25,329 nt of DNA, from positions 1-25,329 of IMG/VR virus record IMGVR_UViG_3300025151_000273; one strand, written 5' to 3'. Positions 1,862 through 19,658 of the stretch are shown here, piece by piece; the stretch's first letter is position 1; the number at the start of each line of letters is the position of its first letter. A model generated the notes under the pieces. That model was not told where the DNA came from. It saw only the letters and a program-made list of their open reading frames with translations, and did not search any database. Source of the DNA: a virus. The translations under genes were made by a program, and so were the position numbers.

Positions 1862-3859
1862 GTGTCACGGCGTCAGTCAATGTTTGAGCACTATCACCGC
1901 GTTCCGTTGGATCTCAAAGAGAACCTTCTGTATCGCGTAGAACTTCGGAAGGCTGCGGTTCAGTCTGCTTGGAACCGCAGCTGTTTGATGAAAGCCTGCA
2001 AGGACGATCCCCTTTTCTTTTTCCTTGCGTTCTGCTGGCTGTTTGAGCCTCGTCCCCGACTGCTCGATAGTGGGGAGCGTGCGCCGATGTACTTCCCGTT
2101 TTTGGTGTGGCCACATCAAGCTGACGCGGTGAAGGAGATGTATATCGATCGCAACACTGGGAAGCCTGCACTTGGTTTTCAGGATGTTGTAGTTGAGAAG
2201 TCTCGCGGTGAGGGCATGTCATGGATGGGCATTTTGTTTGCGATGCACAGTTGGTTGTTTGAGCCTTATTCCAAGGTGGGCTTGGTATCTCGTACTGAGG
2301 ACATGGCAGACGATCCAGAGAACAGTGACAGTTTGTTTTGGAAGATTGATTGGGAGATGGGGATGCTCCCGCTATGGATGACTGGCAAAAGGGATCGGGA
2401 TTGGAAGCGGGTGATTGCTCGTCACACGCTGACGAATAAGCGAAACGAGTCTGTGATTGCTGCTGCTGCCGCTACTGGCGATGTGTTTCGTGGTGGTCGA
2501 GCGACATGGCTGTTGATGGACGAATTTGCGTTTTTCAAGAAGGGCGAAGATGTTGACGCTTTGAACAGTAGTCATGGTGTCACTAATTCGCGTTTGTTTG
2601 TGTCGACGGTCAATGGTCAGCACAACGAGTATCACAGGATTGCCAACGATCCGTCTGGCTACAAGGTTGTGATTGATTGGAAGCAGAACGTGTCGCGTAA
2701 TCGCGGGCTATACACGTTTGTGGATGGTCTTCCGAAGGCTGTCGATCCAGAGCGGAATCCTTTGGATGCTGAATATGATCCGCCGACCGATAAGATCATT
2801 GATTTGTTTAGTTCGCTTCGGCGCAAGGGCTACAACCTTGAGAGTGGTGAGCGTTCGCCTTGGTACGATCAGGAGTGTGACCGTGTGGGGATGACTCCGA
2901 AGCGTATTGCTCAGGAGCTCGATCGGGACTATTCGGGATCTGAGTCGGTTGTTTTTGGTTACGACTTTAAGGTAGCGGCAAAGAGGAACGTTGCTCGTCC
3001 GACACATACGGGGCGGTTTACAAAGATAGAGAACACGACCAGTGGTGAGCTTCAGTTAGAGGCCAAGTGGGATTCGGTGCGTGGCGGCGATACGGACCTT
3101 TGGGTTCCGCTTGATACTTATGGCCGTCCGCCGAGGGGGAGTTACGTTATTGGTGCTGACGTAGCGACAGGACTTGGCGGGACGCACACTTCGAACAGTA
3201 CGCTTGTAGCGTTCAATTCTGACACTCGGGAGCAGGTGTTGGGGTTTGCATCGAGCGTGATAGAGCCATCGGATTTTGCGGACTTGGCGACTGGGATTGC
3301 TTGGTGGTTTCATGGTGCCTATCTAGCGTGGGAGCAGAACGGGCCTGGAGCTGCGTTTACCAAGAGGATGATCCGCATTGGTTATGGGAATGTATTTCGT
3401 CGCAAGTCGCTAGATCGCAGGGGCAGGTCGGCACAAAAGCAGCTTGGTTGGTGGACAGACGACAAGTCTAAGCCGGTGATGTTTGACGAAATATCATTGG
3501 CGATTCGAGAAGGCCGAGTGATTTTGAAATGCGAAAAGCTGGTTCAGGAGTGCGGCCAGTATTTGTATGACGCGCAGGGGCGTATTGTTCACGGGGCGGT
3601 TGGCAGCTCGGATGACAATGCGTCAGGAGGCAAGGCCCACGGCGACCGCGTGATTGCGGCTGGGGTAGCGATGCAGGCTTTGCTTGATCGGCCGAGCTCG
3701 ATTATCACGGCGGTTGATCGCGAACCTATGGCTGAGCCGCCGATGGACACGATGGCGTATCGAATGGCAAACAACATGTACGAGGACTACGAAGAGCAAC
3801 GAGACGGCGATTGCTGGCAGGGTTCTGTATTGGGAGAGGTGCGTGGTCGATATAGATGA
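1862..3859 (+). CDS. terL: Terminase large subunit (packaging ATPase and nuclease)
   Basis: 665 residues; the motor that drives DNA into the procapsid and cuts it. The N-terminal ATPase has a deviant Walker A, KSRGEGMSW at 113-121, Walker B LLMDEF with D220-E221, and a coupling motif around FVSTVNG (S248-T249). The C-terminal RNase H-like nuclease has D433 in VIGADVATG, E491 in WEQNGPG and D595 in KAHGDRVIAA, the usual acidic triad. Length suits the family. The only workable start is GTG at 1862, with a weak upstream GGGTG; an in-frame ATG at 1880 lacks a ribosome site. The gene ends inside the next one, a 17-base overlap. Codons are strikingly TTG- and GGT-rich compared with genes after 4236. 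Confidence 0.95.
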   Translation: MSRRQSMFEHYHRVPLDLKENLLYRVELRKAAVQSAWNRSCLMKACKDDPLFFFLAFCWLFEPRPRLLDSGERAPMYFPFLVWPHQADAVKEMYIDRNTGKPALGFQDVVVEKSRGEGMSWMGILFAMHSWLFEPYSKVGLVSRTEDMADDPENSDSLFWKIDWEMGMLPLWMTGKRDRDWKRVIARHTLTNKRNESVIAAAAATGDVFRGGRATWLLMDEFAFFKKGEDVDALNSSHGVTNSRLFVSTVNGQHNEYHRIANDPSGYKVVIDWKQNVSRNRGLYTFVDGLPKAVDPERNPLDAEYDPPTDKIIDLFSSLRRKGYNLESGERSPWYDQECDRVGMTPKRIAQELDRDYSGSESVVFGYDFKVAAKRNVARPTHTGRFTKIENTTSGELQLEAKWDSVRGGDTDLWVPLDTYGRPPRGSYVIGADVATGLGGTHTSNSTLVAFNSDTREQVLGFASSVIEPSDFADLATGIAWWFHGAYLAWEQNGPGAAFTKRMIRIGYGNVFRRKSLDRRGRSAQKQLGWWTDDKSKPVMFDEISLAIREGRVILKCEKLVQECGQYLYDAQGRIVHGAVGSSDDNASGGKAHGDRVIAAGVAMQALLDRPSSIITAVDREPMAEPPMDTMAYRMANNMYEDYEEQRDGDCWQGSVLGEVRGRYR

Positions 3860-7762: not shown

Positions 7763-8803
7763 ATGCTCACTCCAGACCAAGTACACGACTTCGTGACTAA
7801 CACGCTGTCGGAATTTAAGAGAAACCGCTGGACCGATATTTCACTTGAGTTTCAAGACTACATCGCGTCATCCCTGATTACCGAGAAGGCGGTTCAGGAG
7901 CAGGGCGGTCCAGATATTAGCTTCAGGCTAAAGACACGAAATACTGGCACAGCCCGAAACACTGGCTTGTTTGCTCAAGACTACGCCAAGGCTGTCGACC
8001 TGACGATTCCTGCGTCTGTGGGTTGGACAAAGCAAACCGTCAACTGGATCTATGATGTTGACGAGGATCTGTTTCAGCGTGGCAAGAACGAGATCATCAG
8101 CGTTCTCGCAGCCCGCGAACATGCCGCCATGTCGGACATGGCCGAGCTGAACGAAGAAAACCTTTGGGGTGCTCCTAGCAGCTCAGACGACAAAGCCCCA
8201 ATGGGCATTCCGTTCTGGTTGCAAAAAGATCCAACCACGACTCCCGAAGGTGGCTTTAACGGAGGCAATCCGGCAGGTTTCGCTGCTGGAGCGGCCAATG
8301 TTGACTCTACCAAACACAAGCGATGGCGGAACTGGACCGCGGGATACACCCAGGTGTCCACCAAGGACTTGGTTAAGAAGATCAAGCGTTCGCTTCGCAA
8401 ATGTCACTTCAAGAATCCAGCTAAGCATCCAGAGCTTGGCTACGGCAATGCTCCTATGTGGTGCATGTACTCGGTCCTTGAAGTGCTTGAAGAGCTGGAA
8501 GCTTTGGCTGAAAGTCGCAATGACAATCTCGGCAAAGACGTTGCTCGCTACATGAACGAGGTTGTCGTTGGTGGCGTTCCCGTGAAGTGGGTTCCAATCC
8601 TTGATGACGACACGACCGAGCCGATTTACGGTGTGAACTGGCAGGTGTTCCGTCCGTTTGTGAAGACTGGATGCAACATGCGTCGGTCACAGCCGATGCC
8701 AGCGCCCGGCAACACGCAGCATACGGTGAAGGCCATCCATTACGACACTTGGATGAACTACATCTGCTACAACCGTCGCGCCACCTTCGTTATCTCCAAG
8801 TAA
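7763..8803 (+). CDS. Major capsid protein
   Basis: 346 residues. The sequence fits a capsid family that I recall from planctomycete and marine phages: the stretches SFRLKTRNTGTARNTGLFAQD, NEENLWGAP, RNWTAGYTQVSTKDLVKK, SRNDNLGKDVARYMNEVVVGGVPVKWVPILDDDTTEPIYGVNW and YICYNRRATFVI occur in that order. An HK97-type fold is expected for the family but cannot be read directly from the sequence. Position right after the scaffold and the size agree. The ATG at 7763 has only a weak upstream GCGAG. The long leader and the short unstructured spacing on both sides set it apart from the overlapping genes upstream, as expected for separately regulated high expression. Confidence 0.85.
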   Translation: MLTPDQVHDFVTNTLSEFKRNRWTDISLEFQDYIASSLITEKAVQEQGGPDISFRLKTRNTGTARNTGLFAQDYAKAVDLTIPASVGWTKQTVNWIYDVDEDLFQRGKNEIISVLAAREHAAMSDMAELNEENLWGAPSSSDDKAPMGIPFWLQKDPTTTPEGGFNGGNPAGFAAGAANVDSTKHKRWRNWTAGYTQVSTKDLVKKIKRSLRKCHFKNPAKHPELGYGNAPMWCMYSVLEVLEELEALAESRNDNLGKDVARYMNEVVVGGVPVKWVPILDDDTTEPIYGVNWQVFRPFVKTGCNMRRSQPMPAPGNTQHTVKAIHYDTWMNYICYNRRATFVISK

Positions 8804-10958: not shown

Positions 10959-11297
10959 ATGGGCGTAAGTGAGGCTGCTGGGAATCCACGTGCGGTACAG
11001 ACTAAAAAGTTGCTAACGGGTGAAACGCCAATCAGGACTAACATCGGGGCAATAGCCGCGGTGGTAATAGTGTTAGCCAGCGGAATGTGGTCCTACATTA
11101 GCCTCAACTTTTCTGTGTCAGCGAACTCCGAGCGTATAAGCGAGGTGCTCGCAACTTTGGACGAGCATCAGGTAAAGCTGAATAGTAATGATGTGCAGCT
11201 CGCAGAGATCAGGACTCAGCTGAGTCATATTGAGGAGCTCGTATTAGAGATACGGGCGTCTCTCAAAGATACCAAGTCCGGTGTCGCAAAGGATTAG
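10959..11297 (+). CDS. Single-pass membrane protein with extracytoplasmic coiled coil (spanin- or holin-like candidate)
   Basis: 112 residues from ATG 10959, chosen because AGGAG (10943-10947) lies 11 bases upstream. ATG 10950 (two-base spacing) and GTG 10935 (no site, inside a GTGTCA repeat) are in frame and possible. Residues 28-50 (NIGAIAAVVIVLASGMWSYISL) form one hydrophobic span. The N-terminus is basic (RAVQTKK, R26), so N-inside is likely. Residues 58-104 form a heptad-like charged helix (LDEHQVKLNSNDVQLAEIRTQLSHIEELVLEIRASL). An N-terminal span plus periplasmic coiled coil is the build of inner-membrane spanins (Rz type); a holin or a virion membrane protein are alternatives. No lipoprotein partner or endolysin is in the window. 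Confidence 0.62.
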   Translation: MGVSEAAGNPRAVQTKKLLTGETPIRTNIGAIAAVVIVLASGMWSYISLNFSVSANSERISEVLATLDEHQVKLNSNDVQLAEIRTQLSHIEELVLEIRASLKDTKSGVAKD

Positions 11298-11306
11298 GCC
11301 AAGCTA

Positions 11307-11960
11307 ATGAAGATCACGTACGACGAGCTGCAAAGGAGCATCGGTCGGCATCTTGGTTGGGATCGAAATCCAAGCAACTGGTCGGCCGACGAAATAACTG
11401 ACGCGGCTGACATTATCAAAAGCGGTACTCACGGTTTCTATTGGCCGACGCTGGAAGGAATCCCGCCTCATAAGTGGTCGTTTTTGTGCGTCACTGACAC
11501 GGTGGCAATCACCGATGTGGCAACACTGCCGGACGCATTCATTCGGCTTGTGTCAAGTTTTACGCTCGCAAGTGACGAGCGTGTTGTTTTGCGAAAGGTG
11601 ACAGAGGAGCAGTTGCGGCGTCTGAAGGCTTCCGACGTGCGATCCGGCGAACCGCTTTATTTTGCTGTCCGGCCAAAGCAAGGTGAACAGCGGTACGAGC
11701 TACTTTTACATCCTGTTGCAAATAGTCCTGTGACACTTGCGTATCAATACGAGTTTGAGCCCGAAGAGCTTAGTACGTCGAATACTGAGCACGAAGGATC
11801 GGCGGCTAATAGTCAGGCGCTTCGATACTCTTGTCTTTTCCAAGCCGATCAAATGCTGAACCCAGAAGTGCAGAGTCAGTTTGAGGACAAGTATCGTCAG
11901 GCAATGCTGGCAGCGATTGCAAAGGATCAGGAGATTTACGGTGCAGATCAGAGCAGCTGA
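11307..11960 (+). CDS. Head-tail adaptor-like protein, first module
   Basis: 217 residues. The order of landmarks is an N-terminal helix pair (LGWDRNPSNW at 16-25), HKWSFL at 55-60, a short strand pair ending TLPDAF (73-78), TEEQLRRL (99-106), the strand LYFAVRP, then YELLLHPV (130-137), LAYQYEFEPEEL and a C-terminal helical region that includes FEDKYRQAMLAAIAKDQEIYG. This helix-beta-helix layout, with position between capsid and tail genes, suits ring-forming adaptor proteins (T7 gp11 or P22 gp4 type role) that join portal and tail. The same landmarks recur in the next adaptor-like gene pair and in the gene at 16492. Start ATG 11307 lies nine bases after the previous stop. Its C-terminus overlaps the next gene's start. 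Confidence 0.65.
   Translation: MKITYDELQRSIGRHLGWDRNPSNWSADEITDAADIIKSGTHGFYWPTLEGIPPHKWSFLCVTDTVAITDVATLPDAFIRLVSSFTLASDERVVLRKVTEEQLRRLKASDVRSGEPLYFAVRPKQGEQRYELLLHPVANSPVTLAYQYEFEPEELSTSNTEHEGSAANSQALRYSCLFQADQMLNPEVQSQFEDKYRQAMLAAIAKDQEIYGADQSS
11495..11507. promoter_or_regulatory. TGACACGGTGGCA site inside adaptor module 1
   Basis: One-base variant of the dispersed motif, in codons for T-D-T-V-A. In the protein it precedes the TLPDAF strand, unlike the copies in modules 2 and 3, which sit after the YP(I)P strand. Confidence 0.3.
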
Positions 11961-12363
11961 AAATGAAGAGTATGGCTCATATCTTTGGCTAATGCGTGAG
12001 GTTGGGTCGCGGCTTGGCCTAGATCCTAATCCTTCACTGTGGGACCACTCGCAATACTGGCGCATCGACTCCATTGTGCAATCTGGCTATCAGCAGTTTT
12101 GCCATCCGCCTGCGGTAGAGGACAAGACAGATGACGCGATGGCAGTATCCGATGAAGAAGTAAAGGACATTCGCAAACGTGCTCCACATTCGTGGTCGTG
12201 GCTAAATCGAATCGCAACAATCGAAACCGCCGACGGCCGAGCTGTTTATGACTTACCTAGCGATTTTTCGGGCGGAACAGGTGATTTGGTTGCAGAGGGA
12301 CGCCAGGGCCGTTTGCCAATTGTGGCGGAAGAGCAGCTCCGCGTGCTAATCAATCAGTCTTAG
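11941..12363 (+). CDS. Adaptor-like protein module 2, N-terminal half (appears truncated)
   Basis: 140 residues from GTG 11941, chosen because AGGAG (11929-11933) sits seven bases upstream; the frame runs further back but only through shadow sequence. It overlaps the previous gene by 20 bases. Landmarks follow adaptor module 1: LGLDPNPSLW (25-34), HSWSWL (83-88), YDLPSDF (103-109) and AEEQLRVL (129-136). It then stops at INQS, where module 1 continues with the RP strand, YELLLHPV and C-terminal helices. Those missing pieces are found, in order, at the start of the gene at 16492. So this looks like the front half of an adaptor gene cut by a 4.1 kb insertion; independent folding of a half protein or reassembly from two chains are possible. 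A naturally short protein is the alternative. Confidence 0.68.
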   Translation: MQIRAAENEEYGSYLWLMREVGSRLGLDPNPSLWDHSQYWRIDSIVQSGYQQFCHPPAVEDKTDDAMAVSDEEVKDIRKRAPHSWSWLNRIATIETADGRAVYDLPSDFSGGTGDLVAEGRQGRLPIVAEEQLRVLINQS

Positions 12364-12388
12364 TTTTTTCCAATAAAGAAGTGAACAA

Positions 12389-12994
12389 ATGATTGACTAC
12401 TTAAGCCACGTACAGCCCCTAGAAGCACAAGGGCTTTCCGATGCAGAAATTGCATACAGCATTGCTAATCAGACCGCATTACCGATGCCGTGTGCTGACT
12501 CCAAGATTGTGCTCGAAGAGAATGGTCTAGTTGTAGAAGATCCCGTAACAGGTCAACGATCTGGATCATTGATCGACCATTATGTCGCGATGACAGATGC
12601 AACCTTAAAACAACTAACAGGCTGGTACATTTCCCACGTGTTTGGACGTGGAGAAAGCATCCTTTCTGACACCTACCCTAGAAGCTCTCAAGTAGCTCAA
12701 GTCATGGCAGATTTGCCGGCAGAAATGCAAGCCGCTGCTGATGCACTAATAGCATTAGGTGGTGGTAAGCCTTATGCGGGAACAGTCGAAGCAGATGTTG
12801 TTGCTTGTCGCGACGAGTACAACACGCAGCAGGCTGAGAAAGAAGCAGAGCGAGCGCTTTACGATGCGGTCGGCGATTTGGAAGGGCGATATATAGCGCA
12901 ATACAATTCGCAAATTGCACCACTAATTGATTCGCTAAATACGAACTCAGCGGACTGGGTAGCAGCTATTCAGCAGATGGCTTTGGAGTTTTAG
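12389..12994 (+). CDS. Small helical protein at the head of the tailspike cassette
   Basis: 201 residues. Mostly helical, with a dense charged helix near the C-terminus (RDEYNTQQAEKEAERALYDAVGDLEGRY). The segment ALIALGGGKPYAGTVEADVVACRDEY resembles, from memory, a family of small phage proteins found beside tail-fibre genes; the link is weak. It could be a fibre chaperone or a collar/baseplate piece. A six-T run (12364-12369) lies just upstream, and AAGAAGTG at 12376-12383 is a plausible ribosome site. Leucine codons TTA and CTA are common here, unlike in the packaging genes, as in the other genes of this block. Confidence 0.6.
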   Translation: MIDYLSHVQPLEAQGLSDAEIAYSIANQTALPMPCADSKIVLEENGLVVEDPVTGQRSGSLIDHYVAMTDATLKQLTGWYISHVFGRGESILSDTYPRSSQVAQVMADLPAEMQAAADALIALGGGKPYAGTVEADVVACRDEYNTQQAEKEAERALYDAVGDLEGRYIAQYNSQIAPLIDSLNTNSADWVAAIQQMALEF

Positions 12995-12997
12995 CGC

Positions 12998-14104
12998 ATG
13001 AGTGGGCCGGCAGCAAACGTCAAGAATGTTTACATAGATCAATCCATTGGATCGGGTGGCACTGGAACCAGTGTCAACGATCCGTATGGAGATTTTGAAT
13101 CGGCGTTAGCAGCAGAAACGGCGCAAACAAACGGTACGCAATTCAATATCAAGTCTGGAACAGTTATCAATTTAACTGCGGAAATTTCAGGTCAGCTAAA
13201 CGGAGGTTCTTGGGGAACTAACAACAGCGACTCTGCTCCAGTCATTTTTCGCGGATATAACGCCGCAGCAAACGACGGCGGAAAATTTGAGATTGTCGCA
13301 GCAACAAATACGTCTTGCTGGGGTAGCCAATCGATGAACTATGTTTCGTTTGTCGACGGTTACATGAGAGACTCGGGAACTGCATCTATCATCAACGGCA
13401 ACGATTATTTGCAGTTTCACAATATGGAGTTTTCTGGTTCATCCTCCCAGTGGGGAGTGCTGGCAGATAATTATGCGATCTTCAACAACGTACATGTGCA
13501 TGGGATGACAGGCACTTACGGGATTGGATCACTAACTGGCCCTAAATACTACAACTGTTTTTTAGACGCTTGCAGCGTTTACGGATATATCGGTTCGTCC
13601 TTCGATCATTGCATTTTTTACAACTCTGGCACGGCAATAAGTATTCCTACCGGTGGAGTCTCTCTCGCTGTGATGAATTGCTCGTTCTACGGTTCTACGA
13701 ACGCTGGAGGAGGAGCAGCTATTTACGCTCCGGCACGAAGGTCGCATGGAGGCGTCATCAAAAACAGTGTGTTCGAGCGGTACAATTACGTTCTCAGGGA
13801 AACTGACGGCAATACGCTTCCTGCGATCCTCGCTGGTATTACCTACCACGACTGCCCAGGAGGGCTGACACATACTCATGCAAACATTAGCACTTTAATT
13901 GAGTCGGTGGGAGCTTCACCGTTCGCTAAATCGGGTCTTGCGACGTTTGCAAATAGAGCAAATTACTTCGAACTTACTAACGCTGGGAATGCCCAAACTG
14001 GCGGATATAGTCCCTACGGAACTAGCTGGTATCGTGGAGCAGTACCATTCGTTAATACAGTGAGTGGATCAGGGTCTTACACCGCTCACCCACTGATAGG
14101 ATAG
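12998..14104 (+). CDS. Right-handed beta-helix tailspike-like protein
   Basis: 368 residues. The N-terminal NVYIDQSIGSGGTGTSVNDPYGDFESALAA is the usual opening of pectin-lyase-like beta-helix proteins. Short strand-turn rungs with stacked Asn/Cys/Phe follow: YLQFHNMEFSGSS, YAIFNNVHVHGMT, PKYYNCFLDACSV, SSFDHCIFYNSG, LAVMNCSFYGST and GVIKNSVFERYN, about one rung per 20-25 residues from 120 to 265. The C-terminus (300-368) is a separate beta part ending in WYRGAVPFVNTV. Such proteins bind and often cleave surface polysaccharides during adsorption. I cannot point to catalytic residues. It is three bases after the previous stop and three before the next start, so the cassette is translated as a unit. 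Confidence 0.75.
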   Translation: MSGPAANVKNVYIDQSIGSGGTGTSVNDPYGDFESALAAETAQTNGTQFNIKSGTVINLTAEISGQLNGGSWGTNNSDSAPVIFRGYNAAANDGGKFEIVAATNTSCWGSQSMNYVSFVDGYMRDSGTASIINGNDYLQFHNMEFSGSSSQWGVLADNYAIFNNVHVHGMTGTYGIGSLTGPKYYNCFLDACSVYGYIGSSFDHCIFYNSGTAISIPTGGVSLAVMNCSFYGSTNAGGGAAIYAPARRSHGGVIKNSVFERYNYVLRETDGNTLPAILAGITYHDCPGGLTHTHANISTLIESVGASPFAKSGLATFANRANYFELTNAGNAQTGGYSPYGTSWYRGAVPFVNTVSGSGSYTAHPLIG

Positions 14105-14107
14105 AGA

Positions 14108-15187
14108 ATGGCATTTCAAAGACTCTTGCAGCCGTATTGGTATCCTGGCTATTTGCTGAACTCAGGGTCTGTCACTAATGAGATGAACCTGAACGCAGCA
14201 AATTTAGCTGTGGCGTATGCGTGGGGAACTGGTGTAGGCAAAGCTGGCAATCTTTCGAAGATTCATTTTGATGTTAGAACTTTAGCATCCGCAGGCGATA
14301 TTGAAGTTTCAGTAGAGACATTGAACGCTACAACGGGAGAGCCTACCGGAACGCTTATTTCTACCGGAGCGTCGGTCACTGTGGGTCTGACTGCTGCACA
14401 AAATGAGATAGCAACATTAGGCACAGCAGCAGTAATCCCGAACACAAACACTCCGTTCGCTGTAGTGTTCCGCAATCCCGCCACAGGGTTTGCAAGCTGG
14501 ACCGAAAGCTCTCTTGGCAATGGAGGTGCTTACACAGTGAACTGGGAGTACAACGGGTCATCTTGGTCATTAGGCGCTAGAGGGGGAAAATGCACGCTTG
14601 AATTTGACGATGGCGACAAAGTGTATCCGACAGTAGGGTACACCAATTACAGCGGAGGCACTTCACCGTTTAATAGCACCGACTCGCCAAACGAATACGC
14701 GGCACTTTGGAACCTGCCGTTCGGATGCAAAATTGCAGGATTTGTCACTAGAACTTTCGGTGGAAGCCTCTACCCAGGAACCGGAGAGTTTGGCTTTCTT
14801 GATAGTAGTGGCGCTTTGATTGGCTCAGCAAGTACACTCACATTTAGCACGTTCAAGAACGGTTCGAGTCTGCCAATCTTTTTCAACAACGAAATTGAAC
14901 TAAGTGCCGGTGAAGACTACCGGTCGTATTGCAAAGCAACTTCCACATCAGACATTCGACAATACATCGGTGTACATGAGAATGCTGAAGACCGACTTCA
15001 ACGACACTCTGGCCTACAACCACAATTGCAATCAAGGACAAACGGCGGAGCATGGTCGGACGTCTCTAATTCGGTTATGGCTCACTCGCTAATTATCACC
15101 GAGCTGAGTGACGATGCGAGCTTGCTGAGCGGCGGCACTTCAAGCGTGGGTACTTCGTCGCAACAACATCCTTTAGTCCACAGGTAG
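14108..15187 (+). CDS. Beta-sandwich tail appendage protein
   Basis: 359 residues, all-beta. Two sandwich-like halves seem present. Residues 35-145 include LSKIHFDVRTLASAGDIEVSVETLNATTGEPTGTLIS and TPFAVVFRN. Residues 150-330 open with WSLGARGGKCTLEFDDGD and include CKIAGFVTRTF, GEFGFLDSSG and IELSAGEDYRSYC. The pattern (strand, Gly turn, AVVF, GGAW) resembles carbohydrate-binding or fibre-tip domains of phages. The C-terminal 25 residues are Ser/Gly-rich and end QQHPLVHR. It follows the beta-helix gene by three bases and probably works with it in host-surface binding. Specific receptor unknown. Confidence 0.65.
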   Translation: MAFQRLLQPYWYPGYLLNSGSVTNEMNLNAANLAVAYAWGTGVGKAGNLSKIHFDVRTLASAGDIEVSVETLNATTGEPTGTLISTGASVTVGLTAAQNEIATLGTAAVIPNTNTPFAVVFRNPATGFASWTESSLGNGGAYTVNWEYNGSSWSLGARGGKCTLEFDDGDKVYPTVGYTNYSGGTSPFNSTDSPNEYAALWNLPFGCKIAGFVTRTFGGSLYPGTGEFGFLDSSGALIGSASTLTFSTFKNGSSLPIFFNNEIELSAGEDYRSYCKATSTSDIRQYIGVHENAEDRLQRHSGLQPQLQSRTNGGAWSDVSNSVMAHSLIITELSDDASLLSGGTSSVGTSSQQHPLVHR

Positions 15188-15196
15188 CAGAACGCG

Positions 15197-16489
15197 ATGG
15201 CACTTGAACAAACAATGTTCGTCGGAGACGACCCTGAGATTTTGGTAGATGTTATCGAAAACGGACAGCATGTCGCAGCGTCAATAGACACTACCACTAC
15301 ACGAGTAGATGGGTTCTCAACCGCGCCCCAGGTCACGCCGCTCGGCACAGGCAACTATAGGGTTAGTTTCCCTTCGTTGTCACCTGCGCCAGCTGAAGGG
15401 GACGTACTGTTCGTAAAAGTGAACGGCAGCGTTACTGGCAGCAGCACTACATGGACGGAGGCCATTTATAAATTGAAGGTTGTGCCTGTCGTTGAGGCAA
15501 AGATCGACACTGTTGACACCGAGGTAGGACAGATCAAGGCGCAGACGGATCAGCTCAGTTTTAGCGGTGGAAATGTGAATGCCAACGCCGTGACTGGTGG
15601 GACCGATCCGGCCTCGATTTATACATACTTCACTGCCTCGAGCAGGCAAGACACCTTCAAGGCAGATGTTAGTGCATTAGCTACTGCCGCGAGCATCGCA
15701 GCCTTAAACGACTTTGATCCATCGAGTGATACAGTTGCAAATGTGACGACTGTTTCGGCCGTTACAAACGCAGTGACTACCGACACAGCAAGTCGCGATG
15801 CGTCAAAAGCGGATGTGTCGGGGCTGGCAACTCAATCTTCTGTCGATACTGTTGACACCGAAGTGGGCCTGATCAAGTCGCAGACTGACCAACTTAGATT
15901 TACCGTTAGCAATCAGGTGGACGCCAATGCTTTGACTGGCGGAAGTGATGCGACCGCTGCTAACCAGACCGATATTGTCAATCACCTAACAGACATTAAA
16001 GGTGCAGGCTGGGCTGCTGCGGACAATCTTGCAGAACTTTCTGAAGTAACTAACAAGCTAGATTCAACACTTGTTGCTGACGGTCTTGTTTGGCAATTTA
16101 CGGTGAATGCACTAGAGAACGCTCCGAGTGCAGGAGGTGGAGGATTAGGAATGGAAGACTCCGTTCCTTCCCCTGGCACAGCCGGTACGGTTGGTAAAGC
16201 ATTGAGACAAGTTCTGACAAACTTAGATGCTCAAATAAGTACCGTCGGAGGTAGCGTCGGGCCAGGAGCGATAGCGGCAACTATCGAGGTAACGGTCGCT
16301 GGGCAACCTGAAGATAATGTCGCAGTTTGGATTAGCACCGATGAAGCAGGGGTAAATGTAATAGCAGGTACTCTGTACACCAAAGCAAATGGCCAAGTAA
16401 CTTTCCAACTTGATGCTGGCACGTATTATTCGTGGAAAGAAAAGGCAGGCTTGAACTTTGTGAATCCTGAGGAATTTACGGTTAGCTAG
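15197..16489 (+). CDS. Modular tail-fibre-like protein with coiled repeats and Ig-like ends
   Basis: 430 residues. Residues 1-95 form an Ig-like or beta-sandwich domain (MFVGDDPEILVDVIENGQH...YKLKVV). A shaft at 100-290 carries two copies of TVDTEVGxIKxQTDQLxF (near 104 and 217), each followed by a VxANAxTGG(T/S)D stretch. Short helical shaft segments (KADVSALATAASIAALND, KADVSGLATQSSVDTV) are typical of trimeric fibres. A Gly-rich hinge at about 312-318 precedes a C-terminal carboxypeptidase-regulatory-like beta domain (IEVTVAGQPEDNVAVWISTD...TYYSWKEKAG). GGTAGC at 15183-15188 is a weak ribosome site. It is the last gene of the cassette that interrupts adaptor module 2, two bases before 16492. 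Confidence 0.65.
   Translation: MALEQTMFVGDDPEILVDVIENGQHVAASIDTTTTRVDGFSTAPQVTPLGTGNYRVSFPSLSPAPAEGDVLFVKVNGSVTGSSTTWTEAIYKLKVVPVVEAKIDTVDTEVGQIKAQTDQLSFSGGNVNANAVTGGTDPASIYTYFTASSRQDTFKADVSALATAASIAALNDFDPSSDTVANVTTVSAVTNAVTTDTASRDASKADVSGLATQSSVDTVDTEVGLIKSQTDQLRFTVSNQVDANALTGGSDATAANQTDIVNHLTDIKGAGWAAADNLAELSEVTNKLDSTLVADGLVWQFTVNALENAPSAGGGGLGMEDSVPSPGTAGTVGKALRQVLTNLDAQISTVGGSVGPGAIAATIEVTVAGQPEDNVAVWISTDEAGVNVIAGTLYTKANGQVTFQLDAGTYYSWKEKAGLNFVNPEEFTVS
15506..15562 (+). repeat. Fibre shaft repeat, copy 1
   Basis: About 57 bases coding for DTVDTEVGQIKAQTDQLSF. Copy 2 lies 339 bases (113 codons) downstream and is similar at the DNA level. Confidence 0.65.
15845..15901 (+). repeat. Fibre shaft repeat, copy 2
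   Basis: About 57 bases coding for DTVDTEVGLIKSQTDQLRF, matching copy 1 at 15506. Differences are mostly at third codon positions, so the copies are diverged duplicates under protein-level selection. Confidence 0.65.
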
Positions 16490-16491
16490 TC

Positions 16492-17652
16492 ATGACAACG
16501 ATAACGATAACAGGTAGCCAAGCAAACGATCCGCCACGTCCAGCTACCGCTTTAGCTGAATATGGTGCAATCCGACCTAAGGAAAGTGACGGCTCTGGGG
16601 CGCAAGAGTGGGAGCTGCTTGTCTATCCAATTCCAAACGGAACTGACACGGTGTCACTACGTTATACCGTGCAGCCGCCAGAGCTGAGCAAAGAGCGTCC
16701 TTGGCCGCTAGGTGGGACACATCATGCCGAAACGCTTTTGCAGTCGTGTCTAGCTGTTGCGGAAGCTCGAGAGCGACCAGGGGAGACTAGCGATCGTCAG
16801 TTGTTTATGCAGCGTCTAGCTGCATCGATCGAGCAAGACAAAAAATCTGCTCCGTCGGATCTTACGACTTGGAATAAGCCGAAGGATGATCTTGCCCGTT
16901 TGAAGGGACAGGTCGGGCTTTACGCAGGATACGGTCAAAACGCTTTAGCTTGGACCTCGACGCAAATCGAACTCGTCGACGAGATCGTTCGACAGGGCGT
17001 GAATCGTGTTCTCGTTCCTGCTCCTCTGCCAGGGAGAGCGGACATTCACAAGTGGAGCTTTCTATCGCCGTTAGCGACGCTGCCTCTACGGGAGGGCGTT
17101 TCGGAATACGACCTTCCACAGGACTTTGGTGGCTTTGCTGAGGAACGGATGTGGTATGAGCCAGAAGATAATGTAGTTTGGCCGGATATTGAGATCACAG
17201 GTGAGTACGAGGTTCGGAGGAATTTGCAGCAGTACGTTTCGGGTTCTGGCTATCCGCGGCTTGCAGGCTACGGACAAAAAGCAGATTCCGAGTCGGGCTA
17301 TCAAATCGTGCTTTGGCCAATCCCATCGCGTGCTTACACGCTCAACTATCGCTACAACGTGAAAGCTAGTGACACGGTGACATTTCTTCATGGTGGCGAC
17401 ATTCACTTTGATGTTTACCTTGAAGCTTGTCGCGCAGAAGCGGACATACTGCTAAAGAAGAAGCAGCGACGGCATGAGGAAAGATTTCTTACGAAGCTGC
17501 ATAACGCTATTCGCTACGATCAGCAGCTTATTAACCCTGGCAACCTTGGTTACAACCGAGACGCATCTAGCCGGTTGACAGAGGGGAATAGCAAGCGGTT
17601 GGGCTGGGTGCAGGATGCAGTCGATTATGAGGGGTACACAGACTTCCAATAG
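16492..17652 (+). CDS. Adaptor-like protein: C-terminal half of module 2 fused to complete module 3
   Basis: 386 residues. Residues 1-9 (MTTITITGS) look like a new leader. Residues 10-120 carry the pieces missing from the gene at 11941: YGAIRPKES, WELLVYPIPNG, VSLRYTVQPPELS and a helical tail (HHAETLLQSCLAVAEARERP...FMQRLAASIEQDKK). Residues 130-386 form another full module: HKWSFL (186-191), YDLPQDF (206-212), YQIVLWPIP (270-278), LNYRYNV and C-terminal helices (FDVYLEACRAEADILLKKKQRR). There is no clear ribosome site before the ATG, and its start is two bases after the previous stop, so translation may be coupled. The likely role is in the head-tail connector. Alternatively the whole protein is a native two-domain adaptor and the similarity to its distant neighbour is ordinary paralogy. 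Confidence 0.68.
   Translation: MTTITITGSQANDPPRPATALAEYGAIRPKESDGSGAQEWELLVYPIPNGTDTVSLRYTVQPPELSKERPWPLGGTHHAETLLQSCLAVAEARERPGETSDRQLFMQRLAASIEQDKKSAPSDLTTWNKPKDDLARLKGQVGLYAGYGQNALAWTSTQIELVDEIVRQGVNRVLVPAPLPGRADIHKWSFLSPLATLPLREGVSEYDLPQDFGGFAEERMWYEPEDNVVWPDIEITGEYEVRRNLQQYVSGSGYPRLAGYGQKADSESGYQIVLWPIPSRAYTLNYRYNVKASDTVTFLHGGDIHFDVYLEACRAEADILLKKKQRRHEERFLTKLHNAIRYDQQLINPGNLGYNRDASSRLTEGNSKRLGWVQDAVDYEGYTDFQ
16644..16656. promoter_or_regulatory. TGACACGGTGTCA palindrome inside adaptor module 2 (C-half)
   Basis: Perfect TGACAC/GTGTCA inverted repeat around a single G, in codons for T-D-T-V-S. It is the most symmetric copy of the dispersed motif together with 23864-23876. Confidence 0.35.
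17370..17382. promoter_or_regulatory. TGACACGGTGACA site inside adaptor module 3
   Basis: Same 13 bases as the intergenic site 8812-8824, in codons for S-D-T-V-T. Position in the protein differs from modules 1 and 2. Confidence 0.3.
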
Positions 17653-17663
17653 TCGAGTTCTTG

Positions 17664-17687
17664 GATGACGCAGGTGTCATCGTGTCA
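17664..17687. promoter_or_regulatory. Gap hairpin plus GTGTCA half-site before the small beta-protein gene
   Basis: GATGAC (17664-17669) pairs with GTCATC (17676-17681) across the loop GCAGGT, followed by GTGTCA (17682-17687). The layout equals that at 10918-10940, and the first part resembles the capsid leader hairpin at 7686-7708. All three sit in gaps before genes for abundant or stand-alone virion or membrane proteins. A shared regulator site or RNA element is an inference. Confidence 0.4.
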
Positions 17688-17730
17688 TTAGAATCACTTG
17701 AAACTGGCCTACAACCAATCAGGTGACATC

Positions 17731-18090
17731 ATGGCAAATGAATTGACGATCGGGGCATCACTCAAGTTTTCTAAGGGCGGTGTCGAAGCTGACGTTCGTG
17801 GCACTGGAATTCAACTGGACGTTGCTGGTTCAAAGAAAACTGAATTGACACAAACGGTAGGCACCGCAGAGGAGCCGCTTCTACTTGGTGACATTGCGGC
17901 ACCGGGGTACTGTTTGATGAAAAATCTTAGTTCCGTCAATCCTGTTCACATTCGCCCTGGGACTGGCGAAAACAATCTTATCACTGTTCGTGCTGGCGGG
18001 ATCGCACTGTTTCAACTTGCCGCGACTGCCCCTTACATCATTGCGGACACAGCAGCAGTAGACGTTGAGCTCACCATCATCGAGGCATAG
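17731..18090 (+). CDS. Small beta-rich phage structural protein
   Basis: 119 residues from ATG 17731, chosen over an in-frame ATG at 17698 because AGGTGA (17721-17726) lies just upstream. The sequence (MANELTIGASLKFSKGG...QTVGTAEEPLLLGDI...GYCLMKNLSSVNPVHIRPGTG...VRAGGIALFQL...VDVELTIIEA) matches a small beta protein that I recall as common in phages and prophages. The GY-x-x-x-KNL pattern and the closing ELTIIEA strand are characteristic. Its role is not established. It is all-beta, soluble, and lies between the adaptor and the nozzle-like gene, which fits a tail or decoration component. Its leader shares 15 of 16 bases with that of the gene at 10592. Confidence 0.72.
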   Translation: MANELTIGASLKFSKGGVEADVRGTGIQLDVAGSKKTELTQTVGTAEEPLLLGDIAAPGYCLMKNLSSVNPVHIRPGTGENNLITVRAGGIALFQLAATAPYIIADTAAVDVELTIIEA

Positions 18091-18092
18091 GC

Positions 18093-19658
18093 ATGTCGAC
18101 TCAGGCCATTGAGTTGCCGTTTCCGCTTGGTGGTGTTCAACGGAGATCGGCTAATAGAAGGCTGAGCAATGAATCGCCGCCACATACCGCATGGGCAGTC
18201 AATGTTCGTGCTGAGGGAACGCTTGATCGAAGGCTTCGGGGCGGAAGTCGGCCGGGTTTAACGAAGTTCACTAACACGGACTACGGTACGACCATCGCTG
18301 ACATTGTTTCGGTAACAACAGGTAGCGAGAATGGCACGTCAGATTTGCTGGTCGTGTTAGCGGATTCCGTTCTGAATGTCACAGAGAACGGGACCAATAG
18401 TACGCCGGTAGCATATCTCACAACTCCTAGTGGCGATCGACTGCTGACTCCTGGCGGTGATTTGTTAGTAGCAAGCACTGCCACAGCGCCACCAAACGGG
18501 TTTCTGATTGTCGGCCAACAGAAGGTTTATGCCGTCACGTCAACGGCGATAGTGGAGTTCGATCCGAAGACGGGCAACACAAATAATTTGGTGGCATCAC
18601 AAGGCACTTTACCTGTTGGGATGACCTTTGGAGCGATCTACCGTAATAGGATGATTTTGAGCGGACAGGACAATGCGATCTATGCTTCGCGGCTTGGCGA
18701 TTACACCGATTGGGATTTTGGAGCTCATTACGAGGATGGAGCTCGAGCTACTGCTTTCCAGCTGGCATTGGCCAACGAGGCTGGCGATAAGGTAACAGCA
18801 GTTATCAGTCACAAGGATGACTATCTCATTTGTGCGACTCGCCGAAGCTTGTGGATTGTCCAGGGTGATCCTGTGACTGGCAGATTAGAGAGGATCTCAC
18901 AGAATGTTGGCATCATCAGCGCAAAGGCTTGGGTGAAGACAGACGACACCATTTTCTTCCTGAGTGAGGAAGGGCCGTATCGAATGCAATCCAACGGATC
19001 AGCTCTTGAGGCTGTCGGACAGCAAAGTGTTCCCGACGAGCTTAGGGGCATCGATACTAGCACAACAGCCGTCACGCTCGACTACGACTTCGATCGAAAC
19101 GCTTTTCACATTTACCTGCGAACTGCGGCTGGTAGCGATACTCATTGGTTGTTTGAGCAATCGTCACAGGGTTTCTGGCCGATGCAGCTGCCGGATCAAA
19201 TGTCACCACTGGCATCGTGTCAGCACCAGGGAAAGCTGTTGCTTGCCGGCGGCGATGGTTTCATTCGGACGGCTGAAGGTACGGATGATGATGGGACCGC
19301 GATAGAAAGTCATGTTTTGTTGGGTCCGGTCAAACTTGGCTCATTAGACTTCTACGGGCTTGTGAACTACCTGCATGGAATCCTTGGTGAGGACAGCGGT
19401 GAGGTTACTTGGTACTTAATCGTGGGCGACTCAGCCGACGAGGCCACAGATAATGGCAAAGCGGCGATTGAACTTGCGCAGTCTGGTGGCGACTTCTCGA
19501 GTTATGTCAAAGCTTCAGGGACTTGGCAGGCGAATCGCTCAACAACGGTTCGGCCGAGAGTGAGGGGCATGTGGGCAGTGCTTTGGCTTGAGTCTTCTAA
19601 CCAGTGGGCTTTAGAAGGCGTCACAGCTCAGGTTTCAACAGCAGGCAGATGGAGATAG
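18093..19658 (+). CDS. Tail nozzle / DNA-stabilisation-like beta protein
   Basis: 521 residues. An N-terminal arm (LPFPLGGVQRRSANRRLSNESPPHTAWAVNVRAEGTLDRRLRGGSRPG) leads into a beta-propeller-like body with repeats such as GFLIVGQQKVYAV, MTFGAIYRNRMILSGQDNAIYASRLGDYTDWDFG, VTAVISHKDDYLICATRRSLWIVQG and TIFFLSEEGPYRM. Phage proteins with this string of strands are typically tail nozzle or DNA-stabilisation proteins (T7 gp12 or P22 gp10 roles). The C-terminus (about 415-521) is a separate beta-sandwich. It sits after the adaptors and before the fibres, as expected for a short-tailed phage. Start ATG 18093 is two bases after the previous stop with only a weak GAGG upstream. No catalytic motif is seen. 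Confidence 0.7.
   Translation: MSTQAIELPFPLGGVQRRSANRRLSNESPPHTAWAVNVRAEGTLDRRLRGGSRPGLTKFTNTDYGTTIADIVSVTTGSENGTSDLLVVLADSVLNVTENGTNSTPVAYLTTPSGDRLLTPGGDLLVASTATAPPNGFLIVGQQKVYAVTSTAIVEFDPKTGNTNNLVASQGTLPVGMTFGAIYRNRMILSGQDNAIYASRLGDYTDWDFGAHYEDGARATAFQLALANEAGDKVTAVISHKDDYLICATRRSLWIVQGDPVTGRLERISQNVGIISAKAWVKTDDTIFFLSEEGPYRMQSNGSALEAVGQQSVPDELRGIDTSTTAVTLDYDFDRNAFHIYLRTAAGSDTHWLFEQSSQGFWPMQLPDQMSPLASCQHQGKLLLAGGDGFIRTAEGTDDDGTAIESHVLLGPVKLGSLDFYGLVNYLHGILGEDSGEVTWYLIVGDSADEATDNGKAAIELAQSGGDFSSYVKASGTWQANRSTTVRPRVRGMWAVLWLESSNQWALEGVTAQVSTAGRWR

Follow-up and report, generated by a model that had tools for sequence, protein, structure and literature searches.

A probable host-recognition cassette inside a tandem tail-ring adaptor gene of an uncultured tailed phage

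Among phage proteins, tail-ring adaptors belong to the core and are under strong constraint. Genes for host recognition move as a block that leaves the remainder of the tail unchanged; modular exchange of receptor-binding genes was reportedly described in a study of receptor-binding proteins of Klebsiella phages, and to our knowledge such exchange is generally seen within or between fibre genes. The locus studied here shares with those phages what appear to be host-recognition genes behaving as a movable module, but in this case the module sits within a different structural gene, both parts of which are kept.

Two described ring systems serve for comparison. In SU10 the beta domain of the adaptor docks the long fibres (PMC9509320). 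SU10 gp11 (PDB 7z47) and the adaptors reported here have in common a helix bundle with a beta dock (fold match of a modelled intact relative, TM 0.56 by target length), and in both genomes the adaptor lies between portal and nozzle genes with fibre genes nearby. SU10, however, has one intact single-module adaptor, whereas the window (the whole stretch of 25,329 nucleotides that was analysed) has three modules, two of them fused and one cut by a fibre cassette. Multiple ring paralogues are known in crAss001, some of them docking points for fibre hubs (PMC10172136; PDB 7qoj). The crAss001 proteins R1-R5 resemble our group in that a number of paralogous ring modules share one fold, but they are encoded by separate intact genes, whereas in the window group the modules are tandem-fused and sometimes split. 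In the open-access literature searched, mostly at the level of titles and abstracts, no description of a phage ring adaptor interrupted by genes for receptor binding came to light.

A tandem adaptor gene cut in its second module

The window is a 25.3 kb linear record of an uncultured virus of bacteria and carries a tailed-phage structural region, in which a terminase-like gene (1862-3859), a capsid gene (7763-8803), the adaptors (from 11307) and a nozzle-like gene (18093) are followed by fibre-like genes (Table 1). The product of the nozzle-like gene matches PHROGs annotated as head closure Hc3, tail and internal virion protein, and is probably the nozzle or tail tubular B-like protein expected beside the adaptors. 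Judged from the genes alone, this order agrees with a dodecameric ring between portal and nozzle, as for SU10_adaptor proteins. Adjoining the terminase-like gene, at 592-1852, are genes for a weakly metallopeptidase-like protein (DUF6782) and a calcineurin-like phosphoesterase.

The adaptor region showed no resemblance to the named phage collection, either by DNA or by two adaptor proteins, and single window proteins used as search queries (adaptor halves, terminase, portal) brought no relatives. Relatives were reached through the window capsid, whose homologues define the group, and an alignment of module 2 second halves used as query yielded 46 adaptor loci; relatives and their loci are designated below by L numbers. 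A contig binned as a Phycisphaerales MAG (L097, DLFY01000336.1) carries a phage region with a single-module adaptor and is probably a binned phage contig.

Table 1. Features of the adaptor region in the window
Feature	Position (strand)	Length	Remarks and basis
Adaptor module 1	11307..11960 (+)		Intact SU10/T7-type tail-ring protein; starts MKITYDEL, without leader
Adaptor module 2, first half	11941..12363 (+)		Ends EEQLRVLINQS, then stop; intact-relative profile
Cassette gene 1 (cas1)	12389..12994 (+)	201 aa	Homologues in relatives
Cassette gene 2	12998..14104 (+)	368 aa	Spike-like repetitive protein
Cassette gene 3	14108..15187 (+)	359 aa	No known domain
Cassette gene 4 (casZ)	15197..16489 (+)		Fibre-like
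Cassette-borne restart (probable)	16492..16518 (+)		Leader MTTITITGS; leaders in L003/L051
Adaptor module 2, second half	16519..16884 (+)		Remaining dock strands and two bundle helices
Adaptor module 3	16885..17652 (+)		Same chain as module 2 second half; PF24175, HMM map
Probable nozzle / tail tubular B-like protein	18093..19658 (+)		PHROG matches, E 3e-5 to 5e-8

Three paralogous adaptor modules are present in the window. An earlier, sequence-only reading of this DNA had taken the gene at 11307 for an intact adaptor-like unit, and the genes ending at 12363 and starting at 16492 for the two halves of a second one. Module 1 (product of 11307-11957) indeed matched Pfam SU10_adaptor (PF24175) with 45.1 bits (E 2e-11, cut-off 27). 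The halves were examined by the profile-HMM comparison that this reading had proposed, done blind: the profile was built from four intact relatives alone (tandem adaptors of 512-535 aa, in keeping with the unsplit gene of about 520 codons that had been predicted), with no window sequence. The product of 11941-12360 matched profile positions 3-134 (E 1.8e-40, 138 bits) and the product of 16492-17649 matched positions 139-511 (E 7.9e-115, 383 bits), compared with 4.4 bits for the best shuffled copy among those returning a score; module 1 matched the same profile with E 3.6e-26. The two halves abut on the profile with neither gap nor overlap, and because their matches are complementary in this way they represent a single gene, divided by 4.1 kb of DNA that holds four genes. 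Module 2 of the tandem adaptor gene has thus been cut without loss.

The junction had also been placed correctly: the last residue before the TAG stop (12361-12363) is Ser 12358-12360, and in the 16492 gene it is codon 10 that encodes Gln 16519. The first half has a GTG start with AGGAG seven bases upstream, and comprises two bundle helices and the initial part of the beta 'dock' domain. The 16492 gene does hold the missing second half, but the earlier reading needs correcting here, as the 386-aa product also includes the whole of module 3. This product scored 48.9 bits against PF24175, above the cut-off of 27, over residues 154-341, and the first half alone scored 16.2 bits, under the cut-off.

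An AF2 model of the intact relative L003 (pLDDT 77.8) has in each module a beta domain with a pair of bundle helices before it and another pair after it, that is, the helix bundle with inserted beta dock domain of SU10_adaptor proteins. The best PDB matches of the model in Foldseek were ring proteins of Pa223, VP1, A4, crAss001, GP4 and SU10. Across all split adaptors there are two cut sites in module 2 and one in module 3, and in L003 numbering they fall in predicted loops at 138-145 (window and L005), about 117-121 (L016) and 417-428 (module 3). Two of these loops are inside the beta domain and one is at the domain exit. The beta-domain cut sites would correspond to the fibre-docking domain of SU10, matched as a whole domain rather than as a loop.

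The cassette and the leader that follows it

The cassette between the adaptor halves is about 4.1 kb long and consists of four genes, cas1 to casZ, as had been read from the sequence; the different codon choice noted at that time is also evident, with TTA/CTA leucine codons commoner in the cassette (31/92 versus 62/392, p = 2e-4). The further claim that at least three of the genes are of receptor-binding type stands in part. The C-terminal prealbumin/Ig-like domain of casZ (16262-16486), which marks the right end of the cassette, speaks for it, but none of the four genes has a Pfam or PHROG match at E < 0.05. For want of such matches the receptor-binding role rests on position and on the fibre-like casZ end, and the cassette probably holds host-recognition genes.

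No known domain was found in cas1 (Pfam, PHROG). Its homologues open the cassette in L003 and in L019, L023, L027 and L028, and since a cas1-based search also brought phages in which adaptors of this kind were not detected, it is probably a general cassette gene. Two adjacent cas1 copies occur at L044 (4852-5289 and 5675-6250), on a contig without detected adaptors of this kind. The positional counterpart of cassette gene 2 is a 365-aa protein in L051, with a weak N-terminal match (E 7e-4), and the fibre region of L005 holds a Pfam Beta_helix protein. The end of casZ is 59% identical over 69 aa to the end of the L003 cassette, and an aligned set of such ends matches Pfam SpaA/Big_1/CarboxypepD_reg-like families; against named phages casZ gave no significant match. 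The casZ gene also contains a 71-base direct repeat (15504-15574 and 15843-15913, 79% identical; TVDTEVGxIKxQTDQL), as in a fibre stalk.

Two bases past the casZ stop, the ATG at 16492 opens the leader MTTITITGS. In L003 and L051 the same casZ end is followed by module 1 with the leader MTTVNGTVASASAS (MTTVNGT...), and this leader is missing from module 1 of L052 (which starts MSSLKITYDEL) and of the window. Because the leader follows casZ in the former and is missing in the latter, the restart and leader on the second half most likely came from the cassette. Through the alignment of casZ ends we reached further phages, whose next gene after casZ opens with a similar Thr/Gly-rich leader. In several of these the next gene is of another adaptor family, and altogether similar leaders after casZ precede SU10-type, PHROG 442/40 and 477 head-tail adaptors. 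The p value of this association (p < 1e-4) is descriptive, as the statistic was designed after the leaders were seen. The idea that the leader completes the casZ domain by donating a strand was not supported by an AF2 model of L051 read through the stop, in which the casZ domain was well folded and the leader mostly had pLDDT < 50.

Intact, split and empty relatives

Modules 2 and 3 are intact within one gene in L003 and L051 (512-513 aa), and also in L052 and L022. A related cassette lies directly before module 1 in L003 and L051, a site that is empty, with no cassette, in L052. In L005 module 2 is cut at the same loop as in the window, with other cassette content, and its first half is fused in frame to a spike-like protein. 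In L016 module 2 is cut in the neighbouring loop, with overlapping stop and start and no insert, possibly the scar of a lost cassette. The record of L016 (L057, 9498-9863 and 9860-11146) shows a stop/start overlap of ATGATG and about 20 extra residues. Module 3 carries a lectin or fibre cassette in L019, L023, L024, L068, L069, L083 and near-copies, including lectin-like proteins of 1502 aa (L019) and 791 aa (L083).

The search for the cassette at other sites in related phages, suggested by the sequence-only reading, was thus productive, before module 1 and inside module 3. Its proposal that the cassette moved into the adaptor gene gains support from the intact relatives, the seamless join, these other sites and the empty site of L052; that insertion is recurrent and that the leader most likely derives from the cassette had both escaped it. 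Similar cassettes before or inside the same adaptor genes point to repeated rearrangement of the host-recognition machinery rather than a one-off error.

Other fusions were seen among the relatives. At L077 74-2620 (L022) and L034 10078-11361 (L025), an adaptor module carries fibre or Ig-like domains as an in-frame N-terminal fusion. Tandem-fused adaptors, each made of three to five modules and 794-1313 aa long, are found at L072 (4983-8033), L085 (7532-11473) and L090 (8006-10390); the parts of the open-access literature searched held no description of three to five modules fused in one chain.

In the adaptor tree the module-3-split cases form one clade, while the module-2-split cases branch as a ladder, within which the intact L003 group is nested. 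At least three changes of state are needed, and the tree fits either several module-2 splits or a single one that was later reversed in the L003 group. The nesting of L003, L051 and L052 would also suit an ancestral two-gene state, from which the L003-like genes arose by later fusion. We consider this improbable, as an adaptor module normally consists of a single chain, as seen in SU10, the intact module 1, module 3 and single-module relatives. Moreover, the linker ..xGxPxYxA across the cut is common to intact L003, L022, module 1 and the module-3-split clade, and re-fusion of MTTITITGS... would not restore it.

Both halves in the window are conserved, keeping 27/32 (first) and 29/31 (second) conserved positions. 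Their identity to L003 (47% and 52%) is not below that of intact module 1 (40%) or module 3 (43-46%), and is similar to that of the portal part (52%). In the module-3-split clade dN/dS between L019 and L023 is 0.047 for one part and 0.008 for the other. Given this conservation decay is unlikely, and we attach an equally small probability to the view that module 2 was inactivated by the cassette, the first half being a decaying remnant and the downstream protein working alone. The sub-threshold Pfam score of the first half would fit that view, but its frame is undamaged, its start signal is good, it is no less similar to L003 than the intact modules are, and the two-part state persists in L005 and throughout the module-3 clade with dN/dS < 0.05. 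As both halves keep their conserved positions, the best reading is that the two fragments may still assemble together, as had been suggested from the sequence.

An assembly chimera of two phages joined at 12363 and 16492 is very unlikely. The split of the window is known from a single contig and the codon use of the cassette is somewhat different, but the same kind of split occurs on an independent contig from another metagenome (L005), the module-3 version in several more, and the cassette end and its leader are arranged as in L003/L051. Rejoining of the protein by splicing (intron, intein) or ribosomal bypassing, which conserved and complementary halves would also allow, is most improbable, since a comparison of 11200-17800 with Rfam (E up to 1) gave neither an intron nor any other RNA family, the second half begins at a start codon of its own with a leader missing from intact homologues, and the bypass gaps known to us are far shorter than this stretch of 4.1 kb and its four complete genes.

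A proposed course of events and its meaning

We therefore favour, with good though not full confidence, the insertion of a cas1 to casZ receptor-binding cassette into the second module of the tandem tail-ring (adaptor) gene, with both halves kept and co-folding. The insertion point would lie where the gene encodes a loop of the beta domain, which in SU10 docks fibres. The right end of the cassette most likely supplies the start codon and leader, and the second half is read from there as a separate protein. The two chains would co-fold into one ring subunit, like a natural case of protein-fragment complementation, the second half would stay covalently joined to module 3, and the cassette products may hang on the ring and contact the host. 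The DNA would most likely have moved by recombination between related phages, at a site where function tolerates it. There was no transposase, integrase or endonuclease among the Pfam/PHROG matches of the four cassette genes, and flanking repeats or a target duplication were not seen, as the cassette flanks share no repeat of 8 bases or longer.

More speculatively, and with considerable doubt on our side, the casZ domain, the coupled start and the Thr/Gly leader might form a portable fibre-attachment unit that tags whichever tail-ring or head-tail adaptor gene comes next with an N-terminal docking peptide; inside an adaptor gene, such a unit would divide the ring protein in a way that places the tag in the fibre dock. 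The link between casZ and the leader can be used to search uncultured phages for fibre genes.

Despite the strong constraint on adaptors, they have been cut in separate lineages, in predicted loops, with both parts kept. Phage adaptors would then be a natural case of split structural proteins, pointing to tolerant cut sites, and would suggest a way in which host-range genes are swapped with no need for new attachment parts.
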